Positions 23,701 through 56,389 of a stretch of DNA of 64,000 bases are shown in pieces. This DNA is from Castor canadensis (Eukaryota > Chordata > Mammalia > Rodentia > Castoridae), in the NCBI RefSeq assembly GCF_047511655.1, contig NC_133401.1, positions 17,854,501 to 17,918,500 of the forward strand, in the 5' to 3' direction. The notes beneath the pieces were generated by a model. It had not been told where the DNA came from. It was given only the letters and a program-made list of their open reading frames with translations, and did not search any database. A program made the position numbers and the translations under genes. Each line of letters begins with the position of its first letter. The stretch's first letter is position 1.

Positions 23701-26700
23701 AGAAACTATTTTTACATAAAAGTATTTTTTACTTTTTATTTTTCAGTGTCTGAAGCAAAACCAAAACCAGAATTCACAGAATGATATGTCTTATTTTTTA
23801 ATGTAACATTTTATCAAGTTTGGCATTTAAAAATATAAGATGAGTCAATGTAGATACTTTAGAACTTCCTCTTTTTTTAGAACAAAACATTTCTCTATGG
23901 AGAGAAAATGGCCCACACATATGTTCATAGACCCGTGTGCCTCCTCATGAGCTATCTTTTTTGTTATTTTAGCATCTGGCATGACTTACATGTTTGATTA
24001 TAACTTCTTCTCGCTCCCTTTCTTTTTTTGGCAGTACTGGGGTTTGAACTCAGGGCCTCACTCTTGCCAGGCGGGCGCTCTACCACTTGAGCCACTCCAC
24101 CAGACCACAGCTATGAGAGGATTAAATGATTACTGCTGAACACATATGCCTTCACATCTGAGGAACCAAACTAAACTTTGTTCCACAAAAACACACATAA
24201 ATTACTTCTTATGAAACTTTTTTTTTTTTTTTTTGAGTATTGGGGTTTGAACTCTGGGCCTGCACTTTGAGCCACTCCACCAGTCCTTTCTTGTAACAGG
24301 TTTTTTCGAGATAGGGACTCTTGAATTATTTGCCTGGGCTGGCTTTGAACCTCGAGCCTCCTGATCTCTGCCTCCTGAGTAACTGGGATTACAGGCGTGA
24401 GCCACCGCACCCAGCATTCAACACAGCTTTTATAGTTTGGAAAACAGACTATTTTGGTAGGCATTTAGGGTTTGTTCTAACTTGAAGAATATTTAGAATA
24501 ACATTGTCTAACAGAACTAAGATAAAGCTACTTATGCAATGAAGAATTTTAGTAGCCATTTTAAATCCAATACAAGGTTGGGATTTAATTCTTGGTTTTT
24601 TAAGTGGATACAATTATTTTTTCTTGGTGATACTGGGCTTTGAACTCCGGGCCTTGCACTTGCTAGGCAGGCAGTCTACCTCTTGAGCCATGTCCCCAAC
24701 TCCTCTTTCTTTAGGCTATTCTATCAGATAGCGTGTTTAATTTTTGCCCAGGACCTGCGCTGGACAGGGATACTTCAGTCTACGACCTACACCGCCTTCC
24801 TAGCCGAGATGGCAGGCATGAACCAGCATACCCAGCTTATCAGCTGAGATGGCATCTCATTACCTTTTACCTGGGTTGGCCGGGAACCTGCATCCTCCCA
24901 GTCTCCACCTCCTGAGTAGCTGGGATTCCAGGCATGAGCTACTGAGCCCAGCTCACAACTCATTATTGAAGTGTCACTTCCTGGAAAGCGAGCTGACTTG
25001 TTTTATCCCTGGACCCATTTTCATCATGAGGTATTAAGAGCCTTTTGAAGGCGATTTTTTGGGGAAATACTTGTTGAAATATAATATGCAGGTAGAAAAG
25101 TACACCCATTGTACATAGACTCAGTGAATTTTTGCCAGCTGAAGACCCCCACGTAATTGACACCCAGTATCACAGATGGTTCGGGTTTTTTTGGCTGTGC
25201 TGGGGTTTGAACTCAGGTCCTCACATTCGCTAGGCAGGTGCTCTACCACTTGAGCCACTCCGCCAGCCCAGACCTTGACTGGACCCCAGAACACCCCAGG
25301 TCCCCCTTCCCAGGGCTCCCCACCACTGATGCCCACCATCCAGGCCCTGGCACTGTTGTTAGGTCTGCCTCATGTCTGAATTCGTTCAGGCAACCATACC
25401 CTAAAGACATTTTTGTGTTGCTTTGGTTTTTGAGGCTGGGTCTCACTATACAGCCCAGGCTGGCCTTGAACTGCCCACCTTCCTGCCTCAACTTTCCAAG
25501 TGCCGGGATTACAGACGTGCACCTCTATGTCTGGGTTGCTATCGCCATTTTTTTTTTTTTTTTTTGGAAACTGGTTTCTGCTGCTGAATGTAATGAATGT
25601 TTGTGAGATCCGTTCCTGTTTCCCATGTAGGAATAGAACACTCATTCTCACTGTGTAATATTCCCTTGTGTGGCATATTCATTTATTCGTTGTATTGTTT
25701 TCTCTCTCTCTCTCTCTCTCTCTTTGGCTGTGCTGGGCTTTGAACTCAGGGCCTCACTCTCCCTAGGCAGGTACTCTATCACTTAAGCCACTCCGACAGC
25801 CCTATTTTTATTTTTTTCATCTGTTTTCCCCCACGCCCAGACCTTGTCATCTCCAAGGCAGCATGTTAAACTGTTTAACAGCAAGAGAATGAGCCGGGCG
25901 TGGATGGTCACGCCTGTAATCCCGGCTACTCAGGAGGCAGAGATCAGGAGGATCTCAATTCGAGGCCAGCCCAGGCAAATAGTTCAGGAGACCCTATCCC
26001 CAAAAAACCTAACACACACACGTGCACACACACACAAAGCGAGGCAATAATATTAGTTCTGAGAAAACCTCCCTGTCTTGGGTTCAGATTTCCCACCCAT
26101 GGAGCAGCTGCAGAGGAGTGAGTTCAGCACAGCTCTACAGGGGGCGCCATCTGCACGCCAAGAGCGCAGCAGGGACACCGCTCCTCCCCCTGACTGGCTC
26201 TTTAGCCTCTCAGGTGTCCAGTGCCACCTGGGCCTCAGGTTTTAATTCTGCAGGGCGGGGTGGGGCTTCAGTGCCTGCATTTCTAGTCTTTTCTTTTTTG
26301 GCAGCACTGGGGTTTGAACTCAGAGCCCTGCACTTGCTAGGCAGGCGCTCTACCACTTGACCCACTTCTCAAGCACTTTTTGCTTTGGTTAGTTTTGAGA
26401 TGGGGTCTCATGTTTTTGCGTGGACTGTGGTCCTCCTACCTCTGTCTCCTGAGCAGCTGGGATGACAGGTATGTGTCACCATGCCCATCTTTTTATGGTT
26501 GAAGTCTTGCTTTTTTTTTTTTAAAAAAAACAAAAACAGGATGGCCTCAAACTGCAATCCTCCTGATCTTCACCTCCTGTGTAGCCGGGATTACAGGCGT
26601 GAGTCACCACACCCAGTTGAGTCACCGAATTTCTATCATGTTTGGGAGACACCAAATGCTGTGGACCTGGATGTCATAATTTGTGTAGTGAGGGCTGTCC

Positions 26701-27235
26701 CCCCACCCCAGCGCAGGCCAAGCACTTTCAGAATCAGAGAACCTGCTGGAGGGAACGCGAATGGCTCACCATTAAATGGGGCAGCCGCTTGCGGGAAGTT
26801 TGTCAGCGTAGTGGGTTGTGTGGTGGCCCCTCAAATATATGTCCACCTGGGGCCTGTGAATGTGGCCTTATTTGGAAAAAGAAGTGTTTTCCAATGTCAT
26901 TAACTGAAGGATCTCAAGATGAGATAGTTACAAATTACCCCGGTGAGCCCACATCAGTGTCAAGTGACTGTAGAAGAGAAAGAAGCAAGGGCACAGAGGA
27001 GAAGGCCTTGTGAAGATGGAGGCAGAGATCAGAGGGATGGGGCCACAAGCCCAGGCATGATGGGAGAGGCCAGGAAAGATCCCCCCTTCCCTCCCAGAGC
27101 GTTTGGAAGCCTGTGGCTCTAGTAACACCTTGATTTCAGACTTCTGGCCTTCAGAACTGTGAGAGCATAAATTTGAGTTTGTCATAAACAGGATGGTTTG
27201 TATCCACTTGTTACAACAGCCTCAAAAAACTAATG
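20755..27235. repeat. Intergenic: SINEs, L1 pieces, old LTR-like repeats
   Basis: Plus tRNA-like SINE 20755-20830. MaLR-like piece about 21085-21330. Minus composite SINE 21368-21590. Plus tRNA-like SINE 22050-22128. Minus trimeric SINE 22612-22935, then B1 22938-23036. Minus composite 23230-23420 and a further SINE to 23600. Minus tRNA-like 24028-24110. Minus composite 24218-24416. Minus trimeric 24613-24955. Antisense old L1 3' pieces about 25060-25170 and 25590-25690, interrupted by SINEs (25180-25272, 25420-25545). (CT)n 25700-25724. SINEs 25725-25803 and 25885-26030 (the latter plus). (CA)n 26010-26036. Minus trimeric 26291-26616. An old LTR-like repeat 26805-27235 of the same family as 57,620-58,070. 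No gene seen. Confidence 0.6.
26135..26148 (+). promoter_or_regulatory. CTCF-like motif
   Basis: CTACAGGGGGCGCC has the CAGGGGGCGC core of CTCF sites, in a short repeat-free island (about 26040-26285) with elevated GC. Its orientation is the same as the motif at 18645. Motif evidence only. Confidence 0.3.
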
Positions 27236-27315
27236 CAACCCTTTTTCCCAGGCTGGCTTCAAACTCACCATCCTCCTGCCTGTGCTTCCCAAGTGCCGGG
27301 ATTGCAGGCGTAAAC

Positions 27316-27690
27316 TGTAGCAGGGAGGAGGATCAGAAGAAAACAGTCTAGGCCTGAGTCCTGAGAAAGTAGCAGGGAGGTAGGGATGGCGTAGGAGAAA
27401 GATCAAACCTGAGAAATCTGAACATGAGGAAGGTCACATAGCACCACAGAGGGAAAGTCACGTAGCACTTGGGGTAAAGTAGGCAATAAAATTAAATATA
27501 ACCGTATATGGACTAGACCTTGCTTTTTGCTTCTGTAACCTGCTTGCAAGGGTGTGTAAGGTGAGACCCCTTTGTTCTCAGGGCTCAGCCTTTGGCCACC
27601 AGTCCGCTGGGTCTGTGTCGGCACAATAAAGCATTGCTTCCTGCTAATTGCCTCAGTGTCCCGTATCTCAGCTAGCAAACTCCCAAAACA
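27316..27690 (+). mobile_element. Solo ERV LTR inserted into a B1 SINE
   Basis: The 375-bp element begins TGTAGCAGGG and ends CCCAAAACA, with AATAAA at 27625-27630 in the position expected for the R region. It splits a minus-oriented B1: the left part ends near 27311 and the right part resumes at about 27691 with 'accaccatgcctgg'. The 4 bases on each side are AAAC and GAAC, a target-site duplication with one change. A 4-bp duplication fits a class I (gammaretrovirus-like) ERV. No internal region is present. Confidence 0.7.
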
Positions 27691-27724
27691 GAACCACCAT
27701 GCCTGGTTTACAAACCATTTTTTT

Positions 27725-30530
27725 GTGGGTGGTACTGGGGTTTGAACTCAGGGTCTACATCTTGAACCACTCCACCAGTCCCTTTTCATGATGAGTATTT
27801 TCGAGATAGGGTCTCGTGAATTATTTCTCCAGGCTGGCTTTGAACCCTGAGCCTCCTGATCTCTGCCTCCTGAGTAGCTAGGATTACAGGTGGGAGCCAC
27901 CAGTGCCTGCTTGTTTTGTTTTTGAGACATGATCTTGCTACCTTTGCCTAGGCTAGCCTCAAAGTCAAAATCCCCCTGATCTGTCTCCCGAGTACCGGGG
28001 ATTATAGCCATGAACCACCATGCCCAGGCAAAATCACATTTTTATATATGTACGTCTTAAAAAATTGAAACTTCTAGACTTTTGCGAGTAATAATGAGGT
28101 CAGCACACCCACTCTACCTCCTGTCAGGGTGCTTCTTACCTTGATCTGGCTGGGTGGTTCCCAAGGGCTTGGACCAATCTCTTTGTCACCTGAGTAATTA
28201 TTTTTATTATTCTTGGTGGTATTTCCTGCCAGCCAGCTGTTGCTGCGTCCTCACCTTCTTCCTCCCAGCCTCCGCCTGGTACTTATCAGACCTCCTCCTG
28301 CTCAGGCCCAGAGGATGCTGGGACGTCTGGTGAGCCCACAGGCCAGCGTGGGAAGTTGGCCCAGGCTCAAGCACTGTCACTGATGGGCCCACCACATCCT
28401 GCCCAAAAGCCATCGTGGCCACAGGCCAGGAGCCTCAGTACCATGGAGGGGACAGTGGTGGACGGAAGCCGCCGTTGGCAGGCACAGGGCTTCCTGTGGT
28501 GGCTGAGCACAGCTGTTTCTCTGTGGGGTGTGGCGGCCTTGGCCCCCACAGCCCATGCACTCCTGCTGGGTGCCAGCTTTGCAGCGAACCTGCTCCTGCT
28601 CCGTGGCCACTTGAGCGTGGGCCTTTTTGGCTTCTTTCCTTTTCATGGTGTAATTTGAACTCAGAGCCTGAGCCAACAGCACCGGGCTTTGCCCTTGAAC
28701 TCTTCATCCTCCTACGTCCATCTCTTGAGTAGCTGGGATTACAGGCGTGCACCACCATACTCTCCTGAGGTAGTCTATGATCATTTTTTTCTGTACTGTT
28801 TTTGAAATCCGGTGTGTGTGTTGCACTCATGGTCCATCTCAATTCAGACTCGTTGAATGTGCACAGCTTGGTGGCCTTGTGGCTGGTGACCACTGTAACA
28901 CTCAATCAGTTCTGAATCTTGAAAGGAAGAGGAAGAGACCCTAGAAGAGGCTGCTTGCAGAGGACGGTGAAGACGCACGTGGCCTCAAAACCTCAGACAG
29001 AGTCATCTGCATAAGTCCTCGCACACAGCCGCCAGGGGTGCGCACAAGCGTATGGTGTAAGCAAAAATGGTGAAGTCTCCCATTTCCACTAGGAGGGAAG
29101 CGATCAAGGGAGCAGGGTTCAGATAGTGACGGAGCAATGATGCTCCAGAGCGATGCATTTTAAACTGCATTGTGAAAACCTCGGTTCTGGGTGTTGGGAC
29201 GATGGGGACATTTTTGGGGTGTGGGGGAGGGGAGAATACATGTCTAGATTGCTTAAAAGTGTACAGTGGGTTACCATGGTAATGAAAACAAAACTTGACT
29301 CTTTTTACGCGCTGAGGTTTGAACTCTGGGCCTCAAGCTTGCTAGGCAGTCACTCTACCACTCAGGCCACGCCCCCAGCTTTTTGCTTTTGTTATTGTTG
29401 CTTAGGTGGGACTGGGATTTGAACTCAGGACTTCAGATTTGCAAAGCAGGTGCTCTACTGCTTGAGCCACACCTCCAGTCCATTTGGCTCTGGTTATTTT
29501 GGAAATGGGGGTCTCCAGAACTATTCGCCTGGACTGGCCTCGAGCCATGATTTTCCTGATCTCAGTCTCCCAAGTAGCTGGGATTACAGGCGTGAGCCAA
29601 AGGCTTGGACTTGTTATATATATTTTTAATGGGGTCTTGTGTCTTTTGCCTGGGCGGTTGGCCTGGACTGTGATCCTTCTATTTATGCCTTCTGCACCAT
29701 TGGGATGACAGGTGTGTGCTGTCACACCCAGCTTTATTGGTTGAGACAGGGTCTCCAGAACTGTTTGCCTGGGTTGGCCTGGAACCAGGATCCTTCTGCT
29801 CTCTACCTGTTGAGTAGCTGGGATTACAGGCGTGAGCCACCACATCAGCCTCATTATTTTGAGAGTGGCCCTTGCTGTGTAGCCCAGGCTGGCCTGGAAC
29901 TTGCTGTCCTCCTGCCTCAGCCTCCCAAGTGCTGGGATTACAGATGTGCACCACCTCACCTGGCCCTCCTCTTTTTCTTCCTTCCTTCTCTCCCTCTCTT
30001 ACTTCCTTCCTTCCTCCCTCCCTCCCTCCCTCCCTCCCTCTCTCTCTCTCTTCTTGGCGCTCTTGGGACACACCCCCTCCACTGAAGCACATTTTCTCCT
30101 GAATGTGTACCACTTTCTCATCATCTTAAAGTTCAAAACTTGCACAAGGAAACATCATGAGTTGGGGCCCCTGCAGGGGCTCCTTCCCTGCCTCTGGCAT
30201 GTCGCTTAAAGACCCCGGAATGAGTGAGTGGGTGATGCAGGATGAGGTGAGATGAGGAGTTCATTTCTAAGCTGAGGGTTGTGGCTTGCAGACGGGTCTT
30301 CTGCCCACTTCAGAACTCTATAGGGGCCAGGTGTGGTGGTGCACACTTGTAATCCCAGTACACAGAGGCAGGAGGATGTTGAGTTTGAGACCAGCCTGGG
30401 CTACATAGTGAGTTCTAGGCCAGTCTGGGTTACTCAGAGAGATCTTATCTTGAAACCAAACCAACCCAAAAAAATCTAGAGGAAGATTTAATGGCAAAAT
30501 ATACCACTTCCACAGATCTTTGAAGTCTCT
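27725..30530. repeat. Intergenic: SINEs around an unidentified unique stretch
   Basis: Minus composite SINE 27725-27910 and a further B1/7SL-like SINE 27911-28030. A unique, GC-rich stretch 28205-28660 with open frames on both strands but no protein I recognise. B1 fragment 28690-28770. Repeat-poor 28800-29290. A nested minus SINE cluster 29302-29860 (a composite copy inserted in a trimeric copy), a B1 29862-29963, and a CCTT/CTCC tract 29985-30052. Plus B1 30325-30475. Confidence 0.55.
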
Positions 30531-30865
30531 CTGGGCCTCTAAGCAGCCTGGCTAAGAGGCCAAGGGGCCCATTCCAACCCCTGCTCTCCAGGGCTCCAGG
30601 GAGACTTCAACCAAAGAGACCGCTGAGCTTTCCCCAGCAGCCTGGGACTCCACAAGGAGGAGAGAGTCACTCTCATTTGGGGAGACAGAGGCCACAGGGG
30701 AGGCTGAGCCTCGACAGGGAGGAGGCCCCCAGCTGGCTCCCTCCTACCTTGGACCAGGAACTTGTCTGTCTTCCAATCCCCACCTCTCCCTCCGGCCTGG
30801 GAGGTATGTAGGGTTCGCCAGGTGGATCCCCCACGGAGGGGCCTGGCAGGGGTGCCCAGTGTGTG

Positions 30866-30962
30866 GACCAATGGGAACCCCAGAGAGGAAGGCCTGTCAT
30901 TTCCTCCTGCTATCTGCATTGCCTTGTGGGGCTTTAAAACCACAGCCCAGGCGCAGGAAGGA
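30866..30962 (+). promoter_or_regulatory. C5AR1: Probable C5AR1 promoter (CCAAT box and TTTAAA box)
   Basis: CCAAT is at 30868-30872 and TTTAAA at 30933-30938, in a repeat-free island (about 30530-31020). If transcription starts about 30 bases after TTTAAA (near 30963), the CCAAT box lies about 95 bases upstream. From established knowledge, the murine C5a receptor promoter depends on an NF-Y-bound CCAAT box at about that distance. The island is 7.7 kb before the coding exon, a gap similar to that in human. The assignment is inference from motif spacing and position. Confidence 0.5.
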
Positions 30963-31009
30963 AGGACCTACAGACAGACATCCCAGCGCCCCGGAGGAGC
31001 CAAGACTTG
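30963..31009 (+). other. C5AR1: Probable untranslated exon 1 of C5AR1
   Basis: The short stretch after the TTTAAA box ends in CAAGACTTG with a consensus donor GTGAGC at 31010. C5AR1 genes have a two-exon structure in which a small first exon carries the 5' UTR (in human also reported to carry the initiator ATG). Here the three bases before the donor are TTG, so no ATG is supplied; the start used is the one in exon 2. The exon's 5' end is estimated from the TTTAAA box. Only one such exon is seen for the two coding-exon copies. Confidence 0.4.
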
Positions 31010-34000
31010 GTGAGCTGGCTCCTTTCTTTCTTTTTGGGGAGGCTCTGGGATTTGAACCCAGGGCCTCTTGCATGCTAGGCAAGCCTCTACTGCTTGAAGC
31101 ATATCCCAGCCCTTTGCTTTGGACTGGGGTTCGAACTCAGGGCTTTGCACCTGGAAAGCAGGAGCTCTACCTCTTGAGCCGCTCCTCCAGGCCATTGGGC
31201 TCTGGTTATTTTGCAGATGGGGTCTTACAAACTCTTTGCCTGACTGGCCTCAAACCATGATCCTCCCGACCTCAGCCTCCCAAGTAGCTAGGATGACAGG
31301 TGTGTGTTTTGTTTTTGAGATAGGGTCTCTCTGGCTGACCTGGGCTGGCCTTGTACTTGTGATCCTCCTGCCTCTGCCTCCCCAGTAGCTGGGATTATAG
31401 GCGTGTGGCCCCTTTCTGTCTCCCTAACTCTCTCTTCTCACTCTGACTCCCTCTTTCCCCCGCTCACTGGCTTTCAGTCTCCCCCTTTGTCATCTCTTCT
31501 TCATCCCAAACTCACTCCAGGGATGGGAGGTGACCAAGGAGGAAGATTGTCAAGAAGTGATGGCGGCCACAGTAACCTCCCAGGACTGGGGACTTGTGAG
31601 AAGTTTCTCGAATCAGGGAACACTTGAATCAGGCCCCCTAAAATGATGAAGACTTCCTCCAGCAGGGCTGGCATGCAGCTCGGTGGTAGAGCACGTCCGA
31701 CTGGTGCCCGGTCCCGGGTTCCTTCCCAGCACAAAACGACAAAAACTCTACAACTGAGAAACCCAAAAAGTCCAGGTCAGGAGGCTGCAAAGAGCCAGTT
31801 TGGAAGAACGGCAGGGTGTTTCAGATGCTCTGATGACAGAGAGGGGGAAACTGAGGCAGAGGGAGGAGCAGAGGTGGCCTGGGTCCTCCAGTGGCTGGTG
31901 GCTGCTCTATCTTGACTCTCAGAGGGAGCCCATCCCTGTGGCCCCTTTTGGCCTGTGACCTGAGGTCACAGCCGAGCTGTGATTTAGCACCTGTCGTCAG
32001 GTAACCTCAGTCTTGCTTCATCTTACGAAAGAGGAAACGGAAGAAGAAGCGATGCCTAGGAAGAGGGTGAGGTTGCCTTGCCCCTCATCCCTGCCTGGAG
32101 GTCTGATAAATGGAACTTTAGAACAAGACAACCGTTACCTGCTGCCTTTTTCCTTTCCTTGTAATATTCCAAAGTACCAAAGGCTGTTCAGAGAAAAGTC
32201 ACTCTCTCTGCCCTTCCCAGAGCCTTGGCTCCTTGTCATTGCTCTCAGAGGCAACCATGGGGAGCAGTGTATGGTGGAACTTTCCAGAAACAGGCTATAG
32301 ATGGCCTAGATAAGAAGCTTGGGGAACAAAGGAAGAAAGAATTGGATGAGGGGTGACCCCAAACTCAGTTCAACTTCTGCTTCTACTGTGTACTAGCTGG
32401 GGGGCGTTGAACTCAGGGTGTTGTGTGTACTAGCCAAGTGCTTTGTTACTTAGGCAATGCCCCCAGCCCTCTTACTTTTATTTTGCTTTTGAGATAAGGT
32501 CTCCCACGTAGCTGGGATTACAGGTGTGAAACACCACCTCCAACTTGGGCTTTCTTCCTTTTTTTTTTTTTTGAGAAAAGGTCTCTCTTTGTAGCCCAGG
32601 CTGGCTTGGAACTCGTGCTCATTCTGTTTCAGCCTCCCAAGTGCTGGGATTACAGATGTGCATCACGATGGCCCACCAGCGGATTGTTTAACGATGTCCT
32701 GTCTGCGTAGGGACAGGGAGGGGATGCTCAAAAAAATCCACAGACCTGGACATTGTGTATTTACTGCTCCGAGAGCATTACTGTGAGGTCTGTGATTTCC
32801 CTGGTGGCAGGGGATGCAGGCAGGACTTTGCCTATTGGAGGGATGGGGGAACCGAGGAGAGGAAGGGAGGGGCGAGGTGAAGTGGGTCAGCTGCCCATCC
32901 CATGCACCAGCTCCAGATGTGGAAAGTCATGGCTCTCTGTGATCTCAAGTCTTCCTTTTTTTTTTTTTTTCCCACAGCAGGGTTTAAACTCAGAGCCTCA
33001 TGCTTGCTAGGCAGGCGCTCTACCTCTTGAGCCATGCCTCCAGTCCATTTTGCTCTGGTTATTTTGCAGATGGGGTCTCATGAACCATTTGCTCAGACTG
33101 GCCTTGAACCTTGATCCTCCTGGTCTCTGCCTCCCAAGTAGCTAGGATTACAGGCATGAGTCACTAGTACTGGCTGTATTTTGTTTTTGAGACTGGGTCT
33201 TAGTGAGTTTGCCTGGGAACAAACTTTGTGATCATCCTGCCTTTGCCTCCAGAGTAGCTGGGATTACAGGTATGTGACATCATGCTCAGATCAGCCTGGC
33301 ATTTTTACGTTGCATTACATATTGGCGATCTTTTTACATTAGCACATTACAACTTCCTCATTCTTTCTTGGTTTTATTTTTTTCCCAGTACTGGGATTTG
33401 AACTCAGGGTTTTGGGTTTGCTAGGCAGGTGCTCTACCACTTGAGCTACATCCCCAACTCCTTTTGCTTTTGCTGTAGTTATTTTTCAAGTTGGTTCTCA
33501 CATTTATGCCTAGAGTATCCTGGACCATAATTCTCCTGTTCATGCTTCCTGCCTAGCTGGGACGACAGGTGTGTGCCACTATGCCCAGTTTTATTAGTTG
33601 AGATGGGGTCACTAACTGTTTCCCCAGGCTGGCCTCAAACCACGATCTTCCCAATCTCTGCTTCTGAAGTAGCTAGGATTACAGGTGTGAACCACCAGCT
33701 GCCAGCTCCTCGGTCTTTTTCATGGTTACATAGTGGTCTGTTGCCTGGGCATGTCATCATTAGCATGGCCTCTTCCTTTTCCTGGACACTGAATCCCGGC
33801 CTTCATTTTTTGTCTGTTTTTTGAAACAGGGGCTTCCAAACTTTTTCCAGGTAGTCACAAACTTGTGCTCCTCCTGCCTTGACCTCCTGAGTGCTGGGAT
33901 TACAGGTGTGGACCACCACACCTGGCTTCTTTCCAGTCTGTTTCCAGCTGTTTGCATCAGGGGAACCGAGGAAACCACAGAGTGTTACACTCAGCATGAT

Positions 34001-34486
34001 GAGGTCAGCAGGAGGGGAGGACAGGGTGAGCTCACGCCAGGAAGGGAGTGTGGAAGCTGATGTAGGAGTGAGGTGGAAGAAGGCTCTGCATTTTGGGTCT
34101 GAGTCATTCTGAGAGTTGAAGAAAACAGGCGAGGCAATTAACTTCCTGTGTCACATCCCAGGGGACAGCCTTCCCCAGCAGTCTGGGGCCACCTGCTGTG
34201 CCTGGCATCAACCCTTCAGTGACTTGAGCATGGGACCTGGACAGCACCGTCCAGGGCTAGCAAGTGGGAGGTCAGGGTGTGGGGGCGTCTGAGGAGTGGT
34301 GCGGCCAGTGAATACTAAGGGACACACTTCAGCATTTCAACCTGATTGACTTATTTTCAAGTTGTAAAAAATGACAAGAATAGGGGAAGTATGCTTTTTA
34401 CTTCTCCAGATCTGTCCATCTACTCCTATAATCCACCACTCCACCAGCCAGTCTCCGTCAACTATCCAGTTATCTATCTGTCAGCT

Positions 34487-35462
34487 ATCCACCCACCCAC
34501 CCACCCATCCACCCATCCACCCACCCATCCACCCACCCACCCATCCACCCACCCACCCATCCACCCACCCATCCACCCACCCATCCACCCATCACCCACC
34601 CATCCACCCACCCACCCATCCACCCACCCATCCACCCACCCACCCACCCACCCATCCACCCAAACATCCACCCATCACCCACCCATCCACCCACCCACCC
34701 ATCCACCCACCCATCCACCCACCCACCCACCCATCCACCCAAACATCCACCCATCACCCACCCATCCACCCACCCACCCATCCACCCACCCATCCTCTCA
34801 ACCACCCATCCACCCACCCACCCACCCATCCATCCGCCCATCCACCCAAACATCCACCCATCACCCACCCATCCACCCACCCATCCACCCACCCACCCAT
34901 CCACCCACCCATCCTCCCACCCACCCATCCACCCACCCACCCATCCATCCACCCATCCACCCAAACATCCACCCATCACCCACCCATCCACCCACCCACC
35001 CATCCACCCACCCATCCTCCCACCCACCCATTCACCCACCCATCCATCCATCTACCCACCCTCCCACCCATCCATCCACCCATCCATCCACCCACCCATC
35101 CACCCACCCATCCACCCATCCACCCACCCATCCACCCACCCATCCACCCACCCACCCACCCATCCACCCACCCATCCACCCACCCATCCACCCACCCATC
35201 CACCCATCCACCCAATCATCCACCCACCCACCCACCCATCCACCCATCCATCCACCCAATCATCCACCCATCCACCCACCCATCCACCCATCCACCCAAT
35301 CATCCACCCACCCACCCACCCATCCACCCATCCATCCACCCACCCATCCACCCACCCATCCACCCACCCATCCACCCATCCACCCACCCATCCACCCAAT
35401 CATCCATCCACCCACCCATCCATCCACCCACCCACCCACCCATCCATCCCTCCATCCATCCA
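34487..35462 (+). repeat. Tetranucleotide minisatellite (CCAC/CCAT array), 976 bp
   Basis: The array consists of CCAC and CCAT words in varying order. A longer-range pattern is visible: a unit carrying CAAACATCC then CCATCACCC recurs at about 34661, 34740, 34847 and 34962, and a CAATCATCC variant recurs after 35210. The words contain no stop codon in any plus frame, so frames of 484 and 410 residues run through it. These are not genes; they encode only His/Pro/Thr/Ser/Ile runs that follow from the repeat. Confidence 0.95.
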
Positions 35463-38400
35463 CACCTGTCCATTTCCTCTCTGTCTCTCTTATCTCTCAC
35501 CTTCACCTTTTTTTCTGCACTGGAGTCAAGTGTCAGCCTCATATCCCTTTCCCCGCACAATGTCAGCGTCTACTTCTGCAGAACCAGAGTGCACCCTCCA
35601 TGAGCATGGCAGTCACCAAAGTGGGAAGTCCAGCATCACTGAGTCACTATGTCCTGTCCACGCCCGAGTTCACACAGCCATTCCTGTCACAGCCTTCAGA
35701 GGGACTTGGACTTTCCGGCTCTGGCTCTAGAGCAGGCCGTGTCTGGGTGATCTGGCTCTTTTTATTGATTTATTTTTTTTTTGGCAGCACTGGAGTTTGA
35801 ACTCAGGGCTTCGTGCTTGCTAGGCAGGCACTCTGCCACTTGAGGCACTCTGGCAGCCTTTTTGTTCTTTTTTTTTTTTAATTATCATATTATTATAATA
35901 TCATATATTATTGTACTGGGGTTACATTGCAACATTCGAAAAAGCGTTTACAATGTATCTTAGGGAAATTCACCCCTTCATTGTTCTTCTTTTTCTCTGG
36001 AGACAGGGTCTTGCTTTTTGCCCAGGCTGTCCTGGACAGTGACTCTCCTATTCTAAGTTTCCTGCAGTTGCTGGGATTACAGGCATGTACCACCACACCC
36101 ATCTGTTCTGCCTCTTTAGTCTCTGTTTCAGCTGGAACAGTCCCTCAGTTCTTCTGTGTCTTCACGACACTGGTCTTTTTTATTGACTAAAGTTCTTACA
36201 CATATCCAGCTTTTAAAGTGCCCATTTCAGTGGCATTAGTACATTCACAATCTTGTGCAACCACCACCTCCATATTTCCAGAACATGCCATCGTCCCCCG
36301 AAGAACTCCTGCATCCCCCATGCCCCAGAGCCCCTCCCTCGGCCCAGGCAGCCACAAATCTGCTTTCTGCCTCTCTAAATATGTCTACCCTGACATTTCA
36401 CAGAAATGCAGTCCTAGCTACAGATCTTTTTTGTGCCTGGCTTCTTTCACCGTCTGGCAGCCTGTTTTGGAGGTGTCACACCCCAGCACGTATCACACTC
36501 CATTCCTTTATATGGCTGGTTGCTGGTGCTCTGTGTGGACAAACACCACACCCTGTTCATCTTCTTGTTTGCCATTCCTGACACTTCCCTTTCAATAACT
36601 CATAGTCAGTAATCCCAGCTACTTGGGATTGCCAGCCTGGGCAAAGCGTTCCCCAAACCCCATCTTAACAAGTAGCTGGGCATGGTGGTGTGCTCCATCA
36701 TTCCCAGCTACATCGGAATCATAAATTGGAGGATTCAGTCTGACCAGCGGAAAACAGGAGACCCTACTCAGAAAAATACATAAAACAAAAAGGGATGGGG
36801 AGTGGCTCAAGTAATAGAGCGCCTGCCTAGCAAATATGAGGCCCAGAGTTCAAACCCCAATACCGCCAAAAAAAAAAAAATCAATCACCACTCTGGTTCC
36901 ACCATCATGTGCCCAGGGGCCATAACAGGGCTCGCTTCAGGATGTTAAAGGGACTGGAGAAAAGGAGGAGTAAGGGTTTTGGTCTCAGTGCCTCAGTGGT
37001 CATGACATCAACATGGCGGCAGCAATGGCTGCCATGTCCAGCCCCTCCTGTGTGTCAGGCACTGTGCTAGGCGCTGACATTTCTTATCTCATTTCATCTG
37101 CAAAGTGGGGTCTTAGTAGGTATAAACCCCAGTCTACAAACTCAGGCGCATGAAAAATCCAGCTATGAGTAAGTCTAGAGCAAATAATTTCCTTCCTTCC
37201 TCCCTCCCTCCCTCCCTCCCTCCCTCTTCCTCTGCCTTCCTCCCTCCCTTCCTTTCTCTCCTTTTTCTCTGATAGTACTAAGCATTGATCCAGGGCCTGG
37301 TGCTCGCTAGGCAGGCACTCACTCTCCCACTGAAGCCCATGCTCCCGGCCCTTTTGTTTGCATTTGGTTTTTGAGGCAGGGTCTCACTAGCTTTGCCTGG
37401 GCTGGCCTCAAACTCGTAACCCTCCTGCCTCTGCTTCCGCAGTGCTGGTATTATACCATGTGTCACTGTGCCCTCACTGAGGGTTTGAATGTGTTCCTGG
37501 AGGACCCAGGACACCATACTTTGTCTTCTAATGCCTTTTCCCTCCCCCCACCCAAGGGCCTCTTCATCCCTCATCTGTACACTGGGTTATCCCTGTAATC
37601 CCAGCATTTGGGAGGTGGAGGCAGAAGGATTGAGAGTCCAAGGCCAGCCTGGGGCTATATAGTGAGACCCTGTTTCAAAAGCAAAATAAAAACAAGAAGG
37701 CTGAGGGCATAGGTCAAGTGGTAGAAGACTTGCACAGTACGCTTAAGACCAAAGATTCAGTTCCTCAAAACTGCAAAAAAAATTGCATTAAAGTATATTG
37801 ATGACTGAATTTTGGGAGAGTACCCTCCTAAATTTTTTTTTTTTTTGTTCTGGGCTTGAACTCAGGGCCTATACCTTGAGCCACTCTTCCAGCCCTTTTT
37901 GTGATGGGATTTTTCAAGATAGGGTCTCATGAACTATTTTGCCTGGGCTGGTTTTAAACCTCAATCCTCCTGGTCTCTGATTCCTGAGTAGCTAGGATTA
38001 CAGGTGTGAGCCACCGGTGCCTGGCTCCTCCTAAATTTTGTGCCCAAGGTTAAATGAGGCTCTGTCAAACCTGTGCCTTCTCTGGGTAGCCCGGCAAAGA
38101 GGGAGCCCAGAGCTGAGCATATGTCTCAGTGGGTGAAAGGCAGAGAAAAGGGATAATGGTGATCTGGGGGGAAGCTGCCCGTTAATATCACCTGCATTTG
38201 TGGATGATATTAAACATTTCAGCTGGGAATAGTGTTGCACACCTGTAATCCCAGCTACTCAAGAGGATCCAGGTTTGAAGCCAGCCTGGGCAAATAGTTT
38301 GTGAGACCCTATCTTGAAAACAAACCCATCACAAAATAGGGTTGGTGGAGTGGCTCAAGGTGTAGGCCCTGAGTTCAAGCCCCAGTACTGCGAAAAAAAA

Positions 38401-38559
38401 AAAACCCACAAAAAAGCTGAGTGTGCTGGTGCGTGTCCACTTATCATCCCAGTTACATGGAAGGCACAGATTGGAGGATCAAGGTCTGAGGCCAGCCCAA
38501 AACCAACCGCCATCCCCCCAAAAAAACCAAAGCTAGATCTTATCTGAAAAATAGCCTAA

Positions 38560-38645
38560 AGGGACTGGGGAGTGGCTTAAGTGGTAGAGTGCCTGCCTAG
38601 CAAGCAGGAGGCCCTGAGTTTGAATCCCAGTACTGCCCTCCCCCA
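38560..38645 (+). repeat. tRNA-type SINE at the left edge of the duplication (parent A)
   Basis: This copy reads GGGACTGGGGAGTGGCTTAA, then AGTGGTAGAGTGCCTGCC, then the diagnostic right part 'caggaggccctgagtttg'. Its last ~67 bases, from 38579, are the start of the duplicated unit and recur at 40938. Confidence 0.85.
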
Positions 38646-40937
38646 AATCTGTAACAAGCAGTGCGTCGTGTGCGCTGACCATCGAGAAGGGACAGTGAGT
38701 GGCTGTACTGGTAGAGAACTCAGACTCTCCCTTTTATTCACTAGGGCACCATGGATAATGGCACCTCTGTTGATGACTACTACAACTACCCTGAGGGGAC
38801 CTTGGACCCCAATGTCCCTGTGGACAACAGTCTCAAACGCTTGTATTTCGAGGATGTCCTGGTCTTGGCCATCTACTCCCTTGTGTTCCTGGTGGGTGTG
38901 CTGGGTAACACCCTGGTGGTGTGGGTGACAGCGTTTGAGGTCAGGCGCACCATCAACGCCATCTGGTTCCTCAACTTGGCGGTGGCTGACCTCCTGTCCT
39001 GCCTGGCGCTGCCCATTTTGTTCGCATCCATTGTTCTGCACAAGCAGTGGCCCTTTGGTGCCGCCGCCTGTCGCGTCCTGCCCTCGCTGATCTTGTTTAA
39101 CATGTACTCCAGCATCCTCATCCTGGTCACCATCAGTGCCGATCGCTTCCTGCTGGTGTTCAAGCCCATCTGGTGCCAGTCCTTTCGCCGAGCCAGGGTG
39201 GCCTGGGCAGCTTGTGCCATGGCCTGGGGCTGTGCCCTGCTGCTCAGCGTTCCTTCCTTCCTGTTCCGTGTGGTGAGAAAAGACCCCTTCTCCTCCCACA
39301 CGACATGTGGCATTGACTATGGTAAAGATGGCTTCCACGTGGAGAGGACGGTGGCTATGCTCCGGCTCGTCTTGGGCTTCGTGGTGCCCCTGGTCATCCT
39401 CATCACCTGCTACACCTTCCTCCTGCTCCGGACCTGGAGTCGCAAGGCCACGCGCTCCACCAAGACACTCAAGGTGGTGGTGGCTGTGGTGGTCAGCTTC
39501 TTTGTCCTCTGGCTCCCCTACCAGGTGACGGGGACAATTATGGCCTTCCTGCCCCAGTCCTCAGCTGCCTTCTACTGGCTGCAAAGACTGGACGCCCTGT
39601 GCGTGTCCCTCGCCTATGTCAACTGCTGTGTCAACCCTATCATCTATGTCACTGCTGGCTGGGGTTTCCTGGTCCAGCTCCGAAAGTCTCTTCCCAGTGT
39701 CCTCCGGAACGTGCTGACCGATGAGTCCCTGAGTAGAGAAAGCAAGTCTTTCACACGCTCCACGATAGACACGCAACCTCAAAAGAGCCAGGAGGTGTAA
39801 GGCGAGGCCTCTGAGGCCACTACATGTCCCCATGGTCCTCCTTCCTTTCACTCTGCTCATTTTAACTCAGCCCTGGCGGTGAGTGGGTATGGCTTTTATG
39901 GACTTGTCCCCAACCTTTCCATCTTCTCTGTCCTCATCCTCCATGAACACTTCCCTGTAGGGGACAGTCAACCTATCTTTCCAGCCAATCCTTGTTTGTT
40001 TGGATTTTTTTTTTGGAGATACCAGGGTTTGAACTCAGGTCTCTGTGCTTGCTAGGCAGGTGCTCTACCACTTGAACCGCTCCGCCAGCCCTTTTTTGTG
40101 TTGGGTATTTTCAAGATAGGGTCTTGGAACTATTTGCCCTGGCTGGCTTTGAACTGTGATCCTCCTGATCTCTGCTTCCAGAGTAGCTGGGATTATAGAG
40201 GTGAACCACTGGCACTGACTCACTGGCACTTGACTCAAATTAATTTAAGAGTTTCATGGAGACATTTCCATACACGTATATAATGTGCTTTGATCACGTC
40301 ACCCCTCTCTTACTGTTTCTTATTAATTCGTTCCCCCCCTTTTCTTATTAATTAGTACCTATTTTACTTTCTTCATCTTTTCCTTTTACTGGGCTTTGAA
40401 CTCAGGGCATGATGCTTGGGCGGCAGAGCTACCTCTGAGCTAGGTCTCCAGCCAATATTCCAGCTTCTGACAAGTTGCTTAGATATTTATTTTATGGACA
40501 GATGGCATCTCCAAAGTTACTCTTTTCAGGACAAAGCAAAAGTGTATCAGCTTATTCATGCTTTCGTGAGCTTCTTTAAAGAAAAACATTATGTTAAAAT
40601 GTTACTCTTTTATTTTTTCTGAGATGGGGGATGGTCTGGTTATGTTCCCCAGGCTGGTCTTGATCTCAAAATCATCCTGCCTGAGCCTCCTGAGTAGCTG
40701 GGACTACAGGTGCATGCTGCTGTGCCTGGCTGCTATTTGATTTTTAAGTACTAAGTAAAAAGATGTTACGTAGTTACGTTACAAACTGAGAGGAGTCTGA
40801 GTTGGGGGAACATTGGTTAGGCAGTTACATATCCAACTTCCAGGAGTGGGTAAGAGGGGAATTTAACTAATTTTTTTCTACCTTGAGAACTTCTGTTCTG
40901 GTTGTACTTAAAAAAAAAAGGACTGGCAGAGTGGCTC
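38579..40937 (+). repeat. Tandem unit 1 (2,359 bp) containing a C5AR1 coding exon
   Basis: The unit starts inside the parent-A SINE and ends inside the hybrid SINE. It holds the intron 1 splice acceptor, the full coding exon, the proximal 3' UTR, a minus composite SINE (39998-40215), an L1 3' fragment (about 40215-40380), an ID-like piece (40385-40455) and a B1 (40618-40735). Every landmark recurs exactly 2,359 bases later, with the same homopolymer lengths, and I saw no base difference by eye. Confidence 0.93.
38751..39800 (+). CDS. C5AR1: C5AR1 copy 1, C5a anaphylatoxin chemotactic receptor 1 (349 aa)
   Basis: This is a class A seven-helix receptor for complement C5a on myeloid cells, signalling through Gi. 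The acidic N-terminus carries Tyr10, Tyr11 and Tyr13 (candidate sulfation sites) and an N3-G-T glycosylation site. Class A marks are N53 (helix 1), D80 (helix 2), C107-C186 disulfide pair, D131-R132-F133, FFVLWLPY in helix 6 and N295-P-I-I-Y299. A Ser/Thr-rich tail (about 300-349) offers GRK/arrestin sites. Human C5AR1 has 350 aa. The acceptor AG at 38743-38744 precedes GGCACCATGG, a strong start context. The frame is intact. The second copy encodes the same protein. Confidence 0.97.
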
Positions 40938-41005
40938 AAGTGGTAGAGTGCCTGCCTAGCAAGCAGGAGGCCCTGAGTTTGAATCCCAGTACTGCCCTCC
41001 CCCAA
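40920..41005 (+). repeat. Hybrid SINE at the duplication junction
   Basis: The left part (GGACTGGCAGAGTGGCTC, after a run of ten A) matches the SINE at 43279; the right part (CAGGAGGCCCTGAGTTTG) matches the SINE at 38560. The switch lies within the 26 bases 40938-40963, which are identical in all three SINE copies. This is the expected product of unequal exchange between the two flanking SINEs. Confidence 0.9.
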
Positions 41006-43296
41006 ATCTGTAACAAGCAGTGCGTCGTGTGCGCTGACCATCGAGAAGGGACAGTGAGTGGCTGTACTGGTAGAGAACTCAGACTCTCCCTTTTATTCAC
41101 TAGGGCACCATGGATAATGGCACCTCTGTTGATGACTACTACAACTACCCTGAGGGGACCTTGGACCCCAATGTCCCTGTGGACAACAGTCTCAAACGCT
41201 TGTATTTCGAGGATGTCCTGGTCTTGGCCATCTACTCCCTTGTGTTCCTGGTGGGTGTGCTGGGTAACACCCTGGTGGTGTGGGTGACAGCGTTTGAGGT
41301 CAGGCGCACCATCAACGCCATCTGGTTCCTCAACTTGGCGGTGGCTGACCTCCTGTCCTGCCTGGCGCTGCCCATTTTGTTCGCATCCATTGTTCTGCAC
41401 AAGCAGTGGCCCTTTGGTGCCGCCGCCTGTCGCGTCCTGCCCTCGCTGATCTTGTTTAACATGTACTCCAGCATCCTCATCCTGGTCACCATCAGTGCCG
41501 ATCGCTTCCTGCTGGTGTTCAAGCCCATCTGGTGCCAGTCCTTTCGCCGAGCCAGGGTGGCCTGGGCAGCTTGTGCCATGGCCTGGGGCTGTGCCCTGCT
41601 GCTCAGCGTTCCTTCCTTCCTGTTCCGTGTGGTGAGAAAAGACCCCTTCTCCTCCCACACGACATGTGGCATTGACTATGGTAAAGATGGCTTCCACGTG
41701 GAGAGGACGGTGGCTATGCTCCGGCTCGTCTTGGGCTTCGTGGTGCCCCTGGTCATCCTCATCACCTGCTACACCTTCCTCCTGCTCCGGACCTGGAGTC
41801 GCAAGGCCACGCGCTCCACCAAGACACTCAAGGTGGTGGTGGCTGTGGTGGTCAGCTTCTTTGTCCTCTGGCTCCCCTACCAGGTGACGGGGACAATTAT
41901 GGCCTTCCTGCCCCAGTCCTCAGCTGCCTTCTACTGGCTGCAAAGACTGGACGCCCTGTGCGTGTCCCTCGCCTATGTCAACTGCTGTGTCAACCCTATC
42001 ATCTATGTCACTGCTGGCTGGGGTTTCCTGGTCCAGCTCCGAAAGTCTCTTCCCAGTGTCCTCCGGAACGTGCTGACCGATGAGTCCCTGAGTAGAGAAA
42101 GCAAGTCTTTCACACGCTCCACGATAGACACGCAACCTCAAAAGAGCCAGGAGGTGTAAGGCGAGGCCTCTGAGGCCACTACATGTCCCCATGGTCCTCC
42201 TTCCTTTCACTCTGCTCATTTTAACTCAGCCCTGGCGGTGAGTGGGTATGGCTTTTATGGACTTGTCCCCAACCTTTCCATCTTCTCTGTCCTCATCCTC
42301 CATGAACACTTCCCTGTAGGGGACAGTCAACCTATCTTTCCAGCCAATCCTTGTTTGTTTGGATTTTTTTTTTGGAGATACCAGGGTTTGAACTCAGGTC
42401 TCTGTGCTTGCTAGGCAGGTGCTCTACCACTTGAACCGCTCCGCCAGCCCTTTTTTGTGTTGGGTATTTTCAAGATAGGGTCTTGGAACTATTTGCCCTG
42501 GCTGGCTTTGAACTGTGATCCTCCTGATCTCTGCTTCCAGAGTAGCTGGGATTATAGAGGTGAACCACTGGCACTGACTCACTGGCACTTGACTCAAATT
42601 AATTTAAGAGTTTCATGGAGACATTTCCATACACGTATATAATGTGCTTTGATCACGTCACCCCTCTCTTACTGTTTCTTATTAATTCGTTCCCCCCCTT
42701 TTCTTATTAATTAGTACCTATTTTACTTTCTTCATCTTTTCCTTTTACTGGGCTTTGAACTCAGGGCATGATGCTTGGGCGGCAGAGCTACCTCTGAGCT
42801 AGGTCTCCAGCCAATATTCCAGCTTCTGACAAGTTGCTTAGATATTTATTTTATGGACAGATGGCATCTCCAAAGTTACTCTTTTCAGGACAAAGCAAAA
42901 GTGTATCAGCTTATTCATGCTTTCGTGAGCTTCTTTAAAGAAAAACATTATGTTAAAATGTTACTCTTTTATTTTTTCTGAGATGGGGGATGGTCTGGTT
43001 ATGTTCCCCAGGCTGGTCTTGATCTCAAAATCATCCTGCCTGAGCCTCCTGAGTAGCTGGGACTACAGGTGCATGCTGCTGTGCCTGGCTGCTATTTGAT
43101 TTTTAAGTACTAAGTAAAAAGATGTTACGTAGTTACGTTACAAACTGAGAGGAGTCTGAGTTGGGGGAACATTGGTTAGGCAGTTACATATCCAACTTCC
43201 AGGAGTGGGTAAGAGGGGAATTTAACTAATTTTTTTCTACCTTGAGAACTTCTGTTCTGGTTGTACTTAAAAAAAAAAGGACTGGCAGAGTGGCTC
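40938..43296 (+). repeat. Tandem unit 2 (2,359 bp) containing the second C5AR1 coding exon
   Basis: This is the head-to-tail repeat of 38579-40937. It ends in the parent-B SINE at 43279-43366, after which unique sequence (43367 onward) continues the original 3' flank. The unit includes no copy of the candidate exon 1 or promoter. Confidence 0.93.
41110..42159 (+). CDS. C5AR1: C5AR1 copy 2 (349 aa, identical to copy 1)
   Basis: This has the same open frame, the same acceptor (AG at 41102-41103) and the same protein as copy 1, including the DRF and NPIIY motifs and the Ser/Thr tail. It has no private exon 1. Transcripts would have to start at the shared promoter near 30.96 kb and splice exon 1 to this acceptor (skipping copy 1), or start from a cryptic promoter in unit 1. 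With no difference from copy 1 it is a very recent duplicate, a gene-converted one or an assembly duplicate. Confidence 0.9.
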
Positions 43297-43366
43297 AAGT
43301 GGTAGAGTGCCTGCCTAGCAAGTGCAAGGCCATGAGTTCAAATCCCAGTACTGCCCCCCCCCAAAT
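43279..43366 (+). repeat. tRNA-type SINE at the right edge of the duplication (parent B)
   Basis: It begins like the hybrid SINE but continues with its own right part (TGCAAGGCCATGAGTTCA) after the shared 26 bases (43297-43322). It marks the end of the second unit. Confidence 0.88.
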
Positions 43367-43712
43367 AAGGGCATTTTTATTTATAGGCTGTTCCAGATTC
43401 ACTGATGTTATCATAGTACAGTGAGAGCCTGAGTAGGCTTTCCCAACTTCCCTAAAGCTACATTGCTGACTCACAACTGATGTTGACCTTGATACGATCA
43501 AGGTCCGGGGCACTCCCGTCCCCACTCCCGTCCCCACTTTTCCACTTATATCCTCTTCCCTCCACCCCCCAGCCTCATCCCTGACCCCAGTTGGCCACGA
43601 ATCCACCCTCCATGTGTACAGCACTGTCATTTCCAGAACTGTAGTCAGGAACCCCATGGTAGCTAACCTTTGAAGCTTTTGAAAAACTACTATGTGTGAT
43701 TTCTGTGATGAA

Positions 43713-43718
43713 AATAAA
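43713..43718 (+). promoter_or_regulatory. C5AR1: Probable C5AR1 polyadenylation signal AATAAA
   Basis: This is the first AATAAA on the plus strand after either coding copy. I found no AATAAA or ATTAAA between 39801 and 43712, only an AGTAAA-like variant near 40754 and its copy. Transcripts from copy 1 would therefore be expected to read through copy 2 to this point. The segment 43367-43720 is unique and would be the distal 3' UTR. Confidence 0.5.
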
Positions 43719-45059
43719 AAAAAATAATCAGTGTGGAAATGTTCAGTTATTTACAAAGTGTAATTTCTGCTTAGATTGTATGTGTGTGTGTGTTCGGCTA
43801 GAAGCCGTGTACAAACCAATGTGAGAAGTATGGTGAATCACGTGTAGTTTGAAATTTTCTGATAAGGACATTAAAAAAGTAAAAAGAAAGTAGTTGGGGG
43901 CTGGAGGCACAGCTCAAGTGCCAGCCTAGCAAGCAAGAAGCCCAGTTTAAACCCCACTACGGTAAAGAAGGAGGAAGAGGAGAAATAGCAGCAGGTGGGT
44001 GTGGTGCTTCATGTCTGTAATCCCAGTTACTTGGGAGGCGGAGGCAGGAGGGTCCTGAGTTCAAGGCCAGCCTGAGCAACGTCAGCAAAATAAAAACAAA
44101 AGGACTGGGATGTAGCTCAGTGCTAGAGTGCTAACCTAGCCTGGATGAACCCTGGGCTCCATCCCCAGTATCCCAAAAGAAACCAGAAATAGCAATAGTA
44201 ATCTGGGTGTTATGGATGGTGCACAAGTGTCCATCCTGATTGAGAACTGGCCTGCAGGGGGGCGCTGCAGAGGTGGAGGAAGCTATGGGAGGCGGGGCTT
44301 AGCGGGAGGTCCTTAGTCATTGGGGCGTGTCCTCAGCAGGGAGTAGCGAGCATGACAGGCATGCCAAAATTTCCAGATTTTGTTCAGATGAGGTCTTGTG
44401 AACTTTTTTACCCTGGCTGGTCTTGAACTATGGTTTTCCCATATCCACCTCCTGAGTAGCTGGGATTACAGGAGTAGCTGAGATTACAGGCATGAGCCTC
44501 TGAGTCCAGTTTAAATACATTGTTGATATATTTTCTCTCCCTCCCTCCTTTCCCCTCTCTCGCTCTCTGTCTCTCTGACAGGATCAGTGTAGCGCAGGTT
44601 GTTCTTGAATTCATGCTCCTCCTGCCTCCTCTTGCATATTGGGATTGCAGGTGTGCACCATCACACCTGGCACTTTTTAATTCTTTGAAAATAGTTCAGG
44701 AGACCCCCCCCATCTCCAAAGTAACCAGAGCAAAATGGACTGGAGGAGTGGCTCAAGGGGTAGAGCACCTGCTTTGCAAGAGAGAAGGCCTGAGTTCAAA
44801 CCCCAGTCCCACCAGAAAAAAAAAAAAGAAAAAAAAAAGGGGTGGAACTTAGGGGGAGGCTTTTAGCCACTGGGGTTGTGTCCTTGAAAGGAATGATGGG
44901 AACATTCTGCTTCCTAGCCATGAGGGTAGTGGCTTTGCTGTACTGTGTGCTCCCGCCATGATGCACTTTCCTGCTACAGGCCCAAAGCACCAGGGCCCAG
45001 CGGATCATAGACAGAACCTCAAGAACTGTGAGTCAGAACAAATCTGTCTTCATAAATTG

Positions 45060-55375: not shown

Positions 55376-56389
55376 ATGGAGAACGACTCTCTCAGCTATG
55401 AGTATGGGGACTACAGTGACCTCCCAGATGTCCCTGTGGACTGTCCAGATGGTGCCTGCCTCTCCATGGACACCCTCCGTGTGGCCCCGCTCCTTCTGTA
55501 CGCTGCTATCTTCCTGCTGGGGGTGCCGGGCAATGCCATGGTGGCCTGGGTGACCGGGAAGGAATCTGGCCAGAGGATCTGGGCCATGTGGTTCTTGCAC
55601 CTGGCGGTGGCTGACCTGCTGTGCTGCCTGGCTCTCCCCATCCTGGCAGTGCCCGTTGCCTGGAGGGGACACTGGCCCTTTGGGGCAGTGGGCTGTCGGC
55701 TGCTGCCCTCCGCCATCCTGCTGTCCATGTACGCCAGTGTCCTGCTTCTGGCTGCTCTCAGCGCTGACATCTGCCTGATGTCCCTCAGCATCCCCTGGTG
55801 GGCCATGGATCGGCGGGCCCGTGGGGTGCAGGTGGCCCGGGGGACAGCCTGGGTGCTGGCTTTGCTGCTGACTGTGCCATCTGCTGCCTATCGCCACCTG
55901 CACCATGAACCCTTCCCCTTCCAGCTGCAGTGTGTCGTGGACTACAATGGCTCAGTCGCGGCCGAGGTCACGGTAAACGCCATTCGGTTCATATGTGGCT
56001 TTCTGGGACCGCTGGTGTTTGTGGTCAGCTGTCATATTGTGCTCCTGAGACGAGTGGCCCGAAGCTACTGGAGTCTGAGCACAGCCGTCGTGGTGGGTTT
56101 TTTTGTCTGCTGGGCCCCTTACCACCTGCTGGGGCTGGTGCTCACCTTGGCTGCCCCCAACTCGGTGCTCCTGGCCCGGGCCCTGAGGGCTGAGCCTTTG
56201 GTCGTGGGCCTTGCCTTGGCTCACAGCTGCCTCAACCCCATGATCTTCTTGTATTTTGGGCGGGCTCAGCTCTGCAGGTCACTGCGAGCTGCCTGTCACT
56301 GGGCCCTGAGGGAGCCCCAGGACCAGAAGGAAAGTGTGGTAAGCAGGAAATCCACCAGCCATGACCTGGTGTCAGAGATGGAGGTGTAG
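55376..56389 (+). CDS. C5AR2: C5AR2 (C5L2/GPR77), second C5a receptor (337 aa)
   Basis: This seven-helix receptor binds C5a and C5a-desArg but couples poorly or not at all to G proteins; it recruits arrestin and modulates C5AR1. Length equals human C5AR2 (337 aa), and the ends match well (M-ENDSLSYEYGDYSDL, ...STSHDLVSEMEV). Visible marks are N53, D80, the C107-C186 pair, D131-I132-C133 in place of DRY (Arg lost, as in human DLC), a short third intracellular loop (RVARSYWS), and NPMIFLY at 287-293. N3-D-S and N191-G-S are glycosylation sequons. A consensus acceptor (TCTTGTCCAG, ending 55370) leaves only GTGAG before the ATG, so the coding sequence is in one exon. No AATAAA was found close downstream. 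Confidence 0.97.
   Translation: MENDSLSYEYGDYSDLPDVPVDCPDGACLSMDTLRVAPLLLYAAIFLLGVPGNAMVAWVTGKESGQRIWAMWFLHLAVADLLCCLALPILAVPVAWRGHWPFGAVGCRLLPSAILLSMYASVLLLAALSADICLMSLSIPWWAMDRRARGVQVARGTAWVLALLLTVPSAAYRHLHHEPFPFQLQCVVDYNGSVAAEVTVNAIRFICGFLGPLVFVVSCHIVLLRRVARSYWSLSTAVVVGFFVCWAPYHLLGLVLTLAAPNSVLLARALRAEPLVVGLALAHSCLNPMIFLYFGRAQLCRSLRAACHWALREPQDQKESVVSRKSTSHDLVSEMEV

Follow-up and report, generated by a model that had tools for sequence, protein, structure and literature searches.

Two identical tandem copies of the C5AR1 coding exon in a beaver genome assembly, probably the alternative terminal exons of one gene

Introduction

The C5a receptor C5aR1 drives neutrophil recruitment and complement inflammation. 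Its gene, C5AR1, adjoins C5AR2 and has a small separate first exon upstream, which in other mammals, as described in the human gene literature, carries the start codon. The gene is given two exons in a passage of a review (PMC7905230). In this study, a stretch of 64,000 nucleotides (nt) of the Castor canadensis assembly GCF_047511655.1 (contig NC_133401.1, positions 17,854,501 to 17,918,500 of the forward strand), hereafter the window, was analyzed because a preliminary description had noticed that the complete C5AR1 coding exon is present there twice, head to tail. All coordinates given below are those of the window, and all features named lie on its forward (+) strand.

Results

The base-by-base comparison showed that positions 38579-40963 are the same as positions 40938-43322, with 0 mismatches over 2,385 base pairs (bp) at an offset of 2,359. 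The doubled stretch is composed of unit 1 (38579..40937) and unit 2 (40938..43296), which have the same sequence of 2,359 bp, and the span of 38579-43296 given earlier corresponds exactly to these two units. Each unit contains the last 166 nt of intron 1 with its splice acceptor, the complete coding exon and 1,137 nt of the 3' untranslated region (3' UTR). The preliminary claims of a head-to-tail doubling of the whole coding exon, with an intact frame, a splice acceptor and a part of the 3' UTR in each copy, were thus confirmed: the open reading frames at 38751..39800 (copy 1) and 41110..42159 (copy 2) are both of 349 amino acids and identical, and the same acceptor precedes them. Chance is no explanation for an identity of 2.4 kb. 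The frame is intronless, as would be the case in a retrocopy of the C5AR1 mRNA, but unit 2 includes part of intron 1 together with its splice acceptor, and both ends of the unit fall within short interspersed nuclear elements (SINEs); a retrocopy was therefore rejected, and its probability is regarded as very small.

The window contains no N. A direct-repeat scan of its whole length (30-nt seed, at least 150 nt) found, besides the duplication, only a CCAC-rich satellite family. One satellite of 960 bp (34487-35446) lies inside C5AR1 intron 1 and within long open frames of 410 and 469 amino acids with THPP-type, repeat-rich translations, which are probably a chance product of the repeat unit.

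Both copies carry the Pfam domain PF00001 (201.4 bits). The best match of the receptor among solved structures was 8hk5_A (E 1.2e-154), a chain that bears the name C5a anaphylatoxin chemotactic receptor 1, whereas the best C5AR2 chain was far weaker (E 4.6e-62), which upholds the earlier naming of the frames as C5AR1. The predicted Castor canadensis C5AR1 protein P0002 (320 amino acids) is identical to the window protein wherever the two align, and the remaining relatives share at most 70% identity among the matches listed (best 120 of 317, clustered at 90% identity). The UniRef entry P0002 is without residues 70-98 of the window protein, perhaps because of a gap in the assembly of another beaver genome or in its annotation. 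These matches are no measure of gene copy number, and neither is P0002, the only separately named Castor C5AR1 protein among them. When the window protein was compared with 118 fetched relatives, partial and unnamed sequences included and P0002 excluded for its gap, no residue departed from a column conserved at 97% or more, a strict cut-off that departures could escape. The encoded protein looks like a normal C5AR1 protein, and its binding of C5a and signalling are predicted from its membership of this group. The C5AR2 frame (337 amino acids) lies downstream at 55376..56389 and fixes the locus; together with a first exon ending at 31009, located by homology and motif as described below, both familiar features of the C5AR1 locus are present. 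NCBIfam has no family for the C5AR1 or the C5AR2 receptor. In another part of the window, a frame of 225 amino acids at 8138 had no match in Pfam.

Exon 1 was sought by tblastn with 11 N-terminal extensions of C5AR1 from other mammals, taken by eye from 14 proteins, against positions 12001-38744. The extension of the Elephas protein (P0072) matched 30831-30947 (E 7e-8), and that of the Apodemus protein (P0039) matched 30989-31006 with the residues PRRSQD (E 0.32), on the same strand and after a gap of 41 nt; the other matches were weak and scattered, the best of them (E 0.022 and 0.023) lying elsewhere. The promoter region with exon 1, predicted to be 5' UTR, was thus placed at 30831..31009, where the exon would end with ...cggaggagccaagacTTG/gtgagc, that is, at the donor TTG/GTGAGC. 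On the basis of approximate splice-site frequency tables, which were used for all splice scores in this study, this donor scored 7.34 (132 of the 3,608 GT sites of the window reach 7). The sequence at 30800-31009 matches nothing in the window but itself, and a distance of 7.6 kb separates the predicted exon end from unit 1 further downstream. Joined to the acceptor of copy 1, it would delimit an intron 1 of 7,735 nt (31010..38744).

The codon corresponding to the initial methionine of the Apodemus protein is TTG in the window (31007-31009), no ATG occurs in 30950-31009, and exon 1 would be joined in frame to the coding exon (...RRSQDLGT-MDNGT). For these reasons, translation of beaver C5AR1 most likely starts at the ATG of exon 2 (GGCACCATGG), six bases past the acceptor, and the start codon appears to have moved from exon 1 to exon 2 in the beaver, as far as can be judged from the sequence. 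With the start codon in exon 2, the duplicated exon would be self-contained for coding. The TTG codon also explains why exon 1 was missed by the motif route, in which no ATGGTRAG was found in 20001-38570 and the ATG/GT sites in 12001-38570 were unconvincing. The squirrel and marmot proteins begin with MVLMDNGT and MAFMDNGT, which suggests a related arrangement of the start.

The two coding exons start at 38745 and at 41104 (41104..41109), following the same acceptor (...cactag), which reads ctctcccttttattcactag before GGCACC. Its score was 11.94 in each copy, and 5 of the 1,212 AG sites in 25001-44000 score higher. A candidate donor (GCG/GTGAGT, GT at 39879..39880) lies 78 nt past the stop codon of copy 1; its score of 9.3 is, jointly with that of its copy at 42238, the highest in 38701-43750, and the window has 3,608 GT sites, 38 of them with a score of at least 9. 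A possible partner for this site is the acceptor of copy 2. Decay is known to be triggered when an exon junction follows a stop codon at a distance above 55 nt, and splicing from 39879 to the second acceptor would place such a junction behind the stop codon of copy 1. Frequent use of this route is made less likely by the unusual length (1,134 nt) of the internal exon that it would create. Even before the duplication, the single-copy gene offered this donor a possible partner, an acceptor-like site at 40182 (score 10.2).

Regarding the end of the message, neither AATAAA nor ATTAAA was found between 38.3 and 43.7 kb, and hence neither is present in either unit. The first AATAAA downstream of either copy lies at 43713..43718, is followed by a GTGTGG stretch and is the candidate for the sole polyadenylation signal. 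Taken as the signal, it would imply that the 3' UTR measured about 1.58 kb before the duplication and that only the first part of this 3' UTR was doubled. In the scan, which covered six hexamer types out of many variants, AGTAAA (40754 and 43113) was the only hexamer found inside the units.

The ends of the duplication lie in tRNA-derived SINEs, presumably of the ID type. SINE 1 (38568..38642), in intron 1, was recognized by Rfam as a tRNA (38568-38638, 36.9 bits) and by blastn, with SINE 3 as the query; SINE 3 (43284..43360), in the 3' UTR, was absent from the Rfam tRNA matches of the window. The two share 87.7% identity over 73 nt in the same orientation (blastn, both +). SINE 2 (40925..41001) lies at the junction of the units and is a hybrid, since its 5' part and left flank are like SINE 3, and its 3' part and right flank are like SINE 1. 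In 110 aligned columns of SINE and flanks, and in the coordinates of unit 1, the 16 sites at which SINE 2 agrees with SINE 3 alone are all at or before 38578, the 14 sites at which it agrees with SINE 1 alone are all at or after 38605, and no site is out of order. The switch falls between these two groups, inside a 26-nt tract common to all three SINEs (40938..40963), and this tract accounts for the 26 bp by which the identity extends beyond the two units; the exchange would have taken place somewhere within it.

The tRNA-like SINE family has 56 full or partial matches in the window (E 1e-3), and members were called tRNA-Ala by ARAGORN at six places. When 2,000,000 pairs of breakpoints 1-4 kb apart were drawn at random, 247 pairs had both members in register within SINEs of this family that share an orientation, a figure inflated by the inclusion of the SINEs of the duplication itself. 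Part of a report on the draft genome of C. canadensis gives 441,613 ID elements (PMC5295618). The hybrid SINE 2 (40925-40997) scored 50.6 bits as a tRNA, as compared with 36.9 for SINE 1 and 40.9 for the next of the other 11 Rfam matches, so that the exchange would have chanced to create a more tRNA-like element.

Discussion

The findings at the breakpoints are those of a rearrangement mediated by homology between transposable elements, with homologous elements in the same orientation at both breakpoints (SINE 1 and SINE 3) and a single chimeric element, SINE 2, whose switch lies in a shared tract. Because the hybrid changes its likeness from one partner to the other inside the 26-nt tract, the duplication is apparently the product of an unequal exchange between SINEs. 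SINE 1 on one chromatid would have met SINE 3 on another, and an unequal exchange, or a template switch, would have left the doubled unit. In human rearrangements of this kind, the junction homology has a median of 17 bp, and the partners in chimeric Alu elements have an "average divergence" of 80%, interpreted here as 80% identity, according to portions of one study (PMC9675761). With 26 bp at the junction and 87.7% identity between the partners, the beaver case is of the same sort.

Perfect identity over 2.4 kb, SINEs and 3' UTR included, is also what a copied contig would show, and the most serious alternative is a false duplication made by the assembler in an animal that has a single copy. 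Several observations oppose it. The join is not at a gap, the assembly is contiguous, since one contig of 87,067,848 bases carries the records of the C5AR1 and the C5AR2 protein alike, and no second duplication of this kind of at least 150 nt was found in the window. In addition, an exact overlap of 26 nt is short for the k-mers or overlaps usually employed in assembly, and a SINE hybrid in register is not expected from misplaced haplotype contigs; a misplaced haplotype contig is disfavored by this hybrid and by the lack of N. An artefact is therefore judged unlikely, although it deserves to be kept in mind, and in that event the present result would have value only as a correction.

The absence of any difference over 2,359 sites gives an estimated upper age (95%) of approximately 0.29 million years at an assumed rate of 2.2e-9 substitutions/site/year, or 0.14 million years at 4.5e-9. 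Since the event would be so young, the duplication may well be polymorphic and still segregating. The later divergence of the copies that had been put forward has not begun. The same identity could have been produced in an older duplication that was homogenized by gene conversion or repeated exchange, as conversion can take place between tandem copies at a distance of 2.4 kb; however, no difference interrupts the identity anywhere, in noncoding sequence or otherwise, up to the switch point in the SINEs, and an older origin is considered highly improbable.

We consider it probable that a recent, SINE-mediated tandem duplication occurred in the beaver and that the result is one C5AR1 gene with two identical terminal coding exons. 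The argument for one transcription unit is that exon 1 with the promoter and the likely signal for the end of the message both lie outside the doubled stretch. In such a gene, a single promoter and exon 1 would serve two identical coding exons and one main polyadenylation signal. Splicing of exon 1 to the acceptor of copy 1 would give an mRNA with a 3' UTR of about 3.9 kb that holds the second frame untranslated, and splicing to the acceptor of copy 2 would give the ancestral mRNA with a 3' UTR of about 1.6 kb. All three predicted splice routes (copy 1, copy 2 and the donor at 39879) would lead to the same receptor of 349 amino acids, translated from the first frame of the message. The output of C5aR1 would be set by one promoter and would stay much as it was, or would fall somewhat where the 3' UTR is long or contains a junction; on the motifs described, unchanged output is expected and lower output is possible.

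Doubled dosage, which the preliminary description had envisaged, would call for two C5AR1 genes that are expressed independently. In favor of this, neither frame is interrupted and, with the start codon in the duplicated exon, an ATG is present in each copy. However, the promoter and exon 1 gave a single match in the window (no search for a new promoter elsewhere was made), and the unit, which reaches 166 nt beyond the exon on the upstream side, contains neither AATAAA nor ATTAAA. Copy 2 is thus without a visible promoter of its own and copy 1 without a canonical end of its own, so that an increase in dosage is not supported, and two separate genes are regarded as improbable.

The duplication could also change the output of C5aR1 through RNA processing rather than copy number, as a real, young and segregating allele whose messages from copy 1 would either have the 3.9-kb 3' UTR with its complete second frame or be spliced from 39879 to the acceptor of copy 2; the latter would be marked for nonsense-mediated decay. 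The start codon in exon 2 would have made the duplicated exon self-contained, and thereby such an allele possible. If this were true, "more copies" would mean less receptor. An altered output of this kind is given a small but appreciable chance.

Several points weigh against the single-gene reading preferred here. The location of exon 1 is supported by one strong and one weak match, and its donor is modest (7.34). Acceptor-like sites stronger than that at 38745 exist elsewhere between 25 and 44 kb. A weak signal might be provided within the unit by AGTAAA at 40754, and the splice choices, like the signal at 43713, are predicted from motifs and approximate frequency tables. As for the mechanism, human complex variants showed no hybrid Alu at their junctions in one study, which cites another study that did find them (PMC6286558).

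Among the matches listed from the open-access literature, as titles and beginnings of abstracts, there was no record of a beaver C5AR1 duplication, and neither "C5AR1" nor "C5a" occurs in the main text of PMC5295618, which describes the beaver genome. SINE-mediated tandem duplication of an exon is already known as an event, and its instance at C5AR1 is new. If the single-gene reading is correct, the locus would offer a clean natural experiment on the gain of an identical second terminal exon while the promoter stays single, in which splice choice, 3' UTR length and decay meet at one locus. Moreover, it cautions annotators against taking two intact C5AR1 frames in one genome as proof of two genes.

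Changes in the copy number of C5a receptor genes are known in mammals. A review notes that C5AR2 is duplicated in the bat Cynopterus sphinx (PMC12026326). Several differing C5AR2-like proteins of Pteropus medius, and others from P. vampyrus and Rousettus (P0207, P0210, P0217, P0221 and P0225), were also encountered, which suggests, at the level of these protein records, an expansion of C5AR2 in fruit bats. The Cynopterus and Pteropus cases thus indicate that such changes occur, and the beaver case resembles them in this respect. Unlike the fruit-bat genes, of which the Pteropus records differ among themselves, the beaver duplication concerns C5AR1, includes the terminal exon only and shows no divergence.

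The arrangement is also comparable to tandem duplicated exons with mutually exclusive splicing, which are likewise neighboring copies with their own acceptors in one gene (PMC9013439, PMC9741552). Unlike those exons, the C5AR1 copies are terminal, contain the whole frame and are identical, so that the choice between them would leave the protein unchanged, and their splicing is predicted here. The difference between isoforms that is expected of mutually exclusive exons is absent (0 differences in 2,359 bp). As for the splice sites around the copies, the acceptors are identical, terminal exons need no donor, and the GT at 39879 is a candidate. The closest resemblance is to unequal exchange between Alu elements, with which the beaver duplication shares imperfect SINEs of the same orientation at both ends, a hybrid at the junction, a short shared tract and the lack of inserted bases. 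It differs from the Alu cases in that the elements are tRNA-derived SINEs, taken to be of the ID type, and in that the unit comprises precisely one coding exon, which is the terminal exon of an innate immune receptor.

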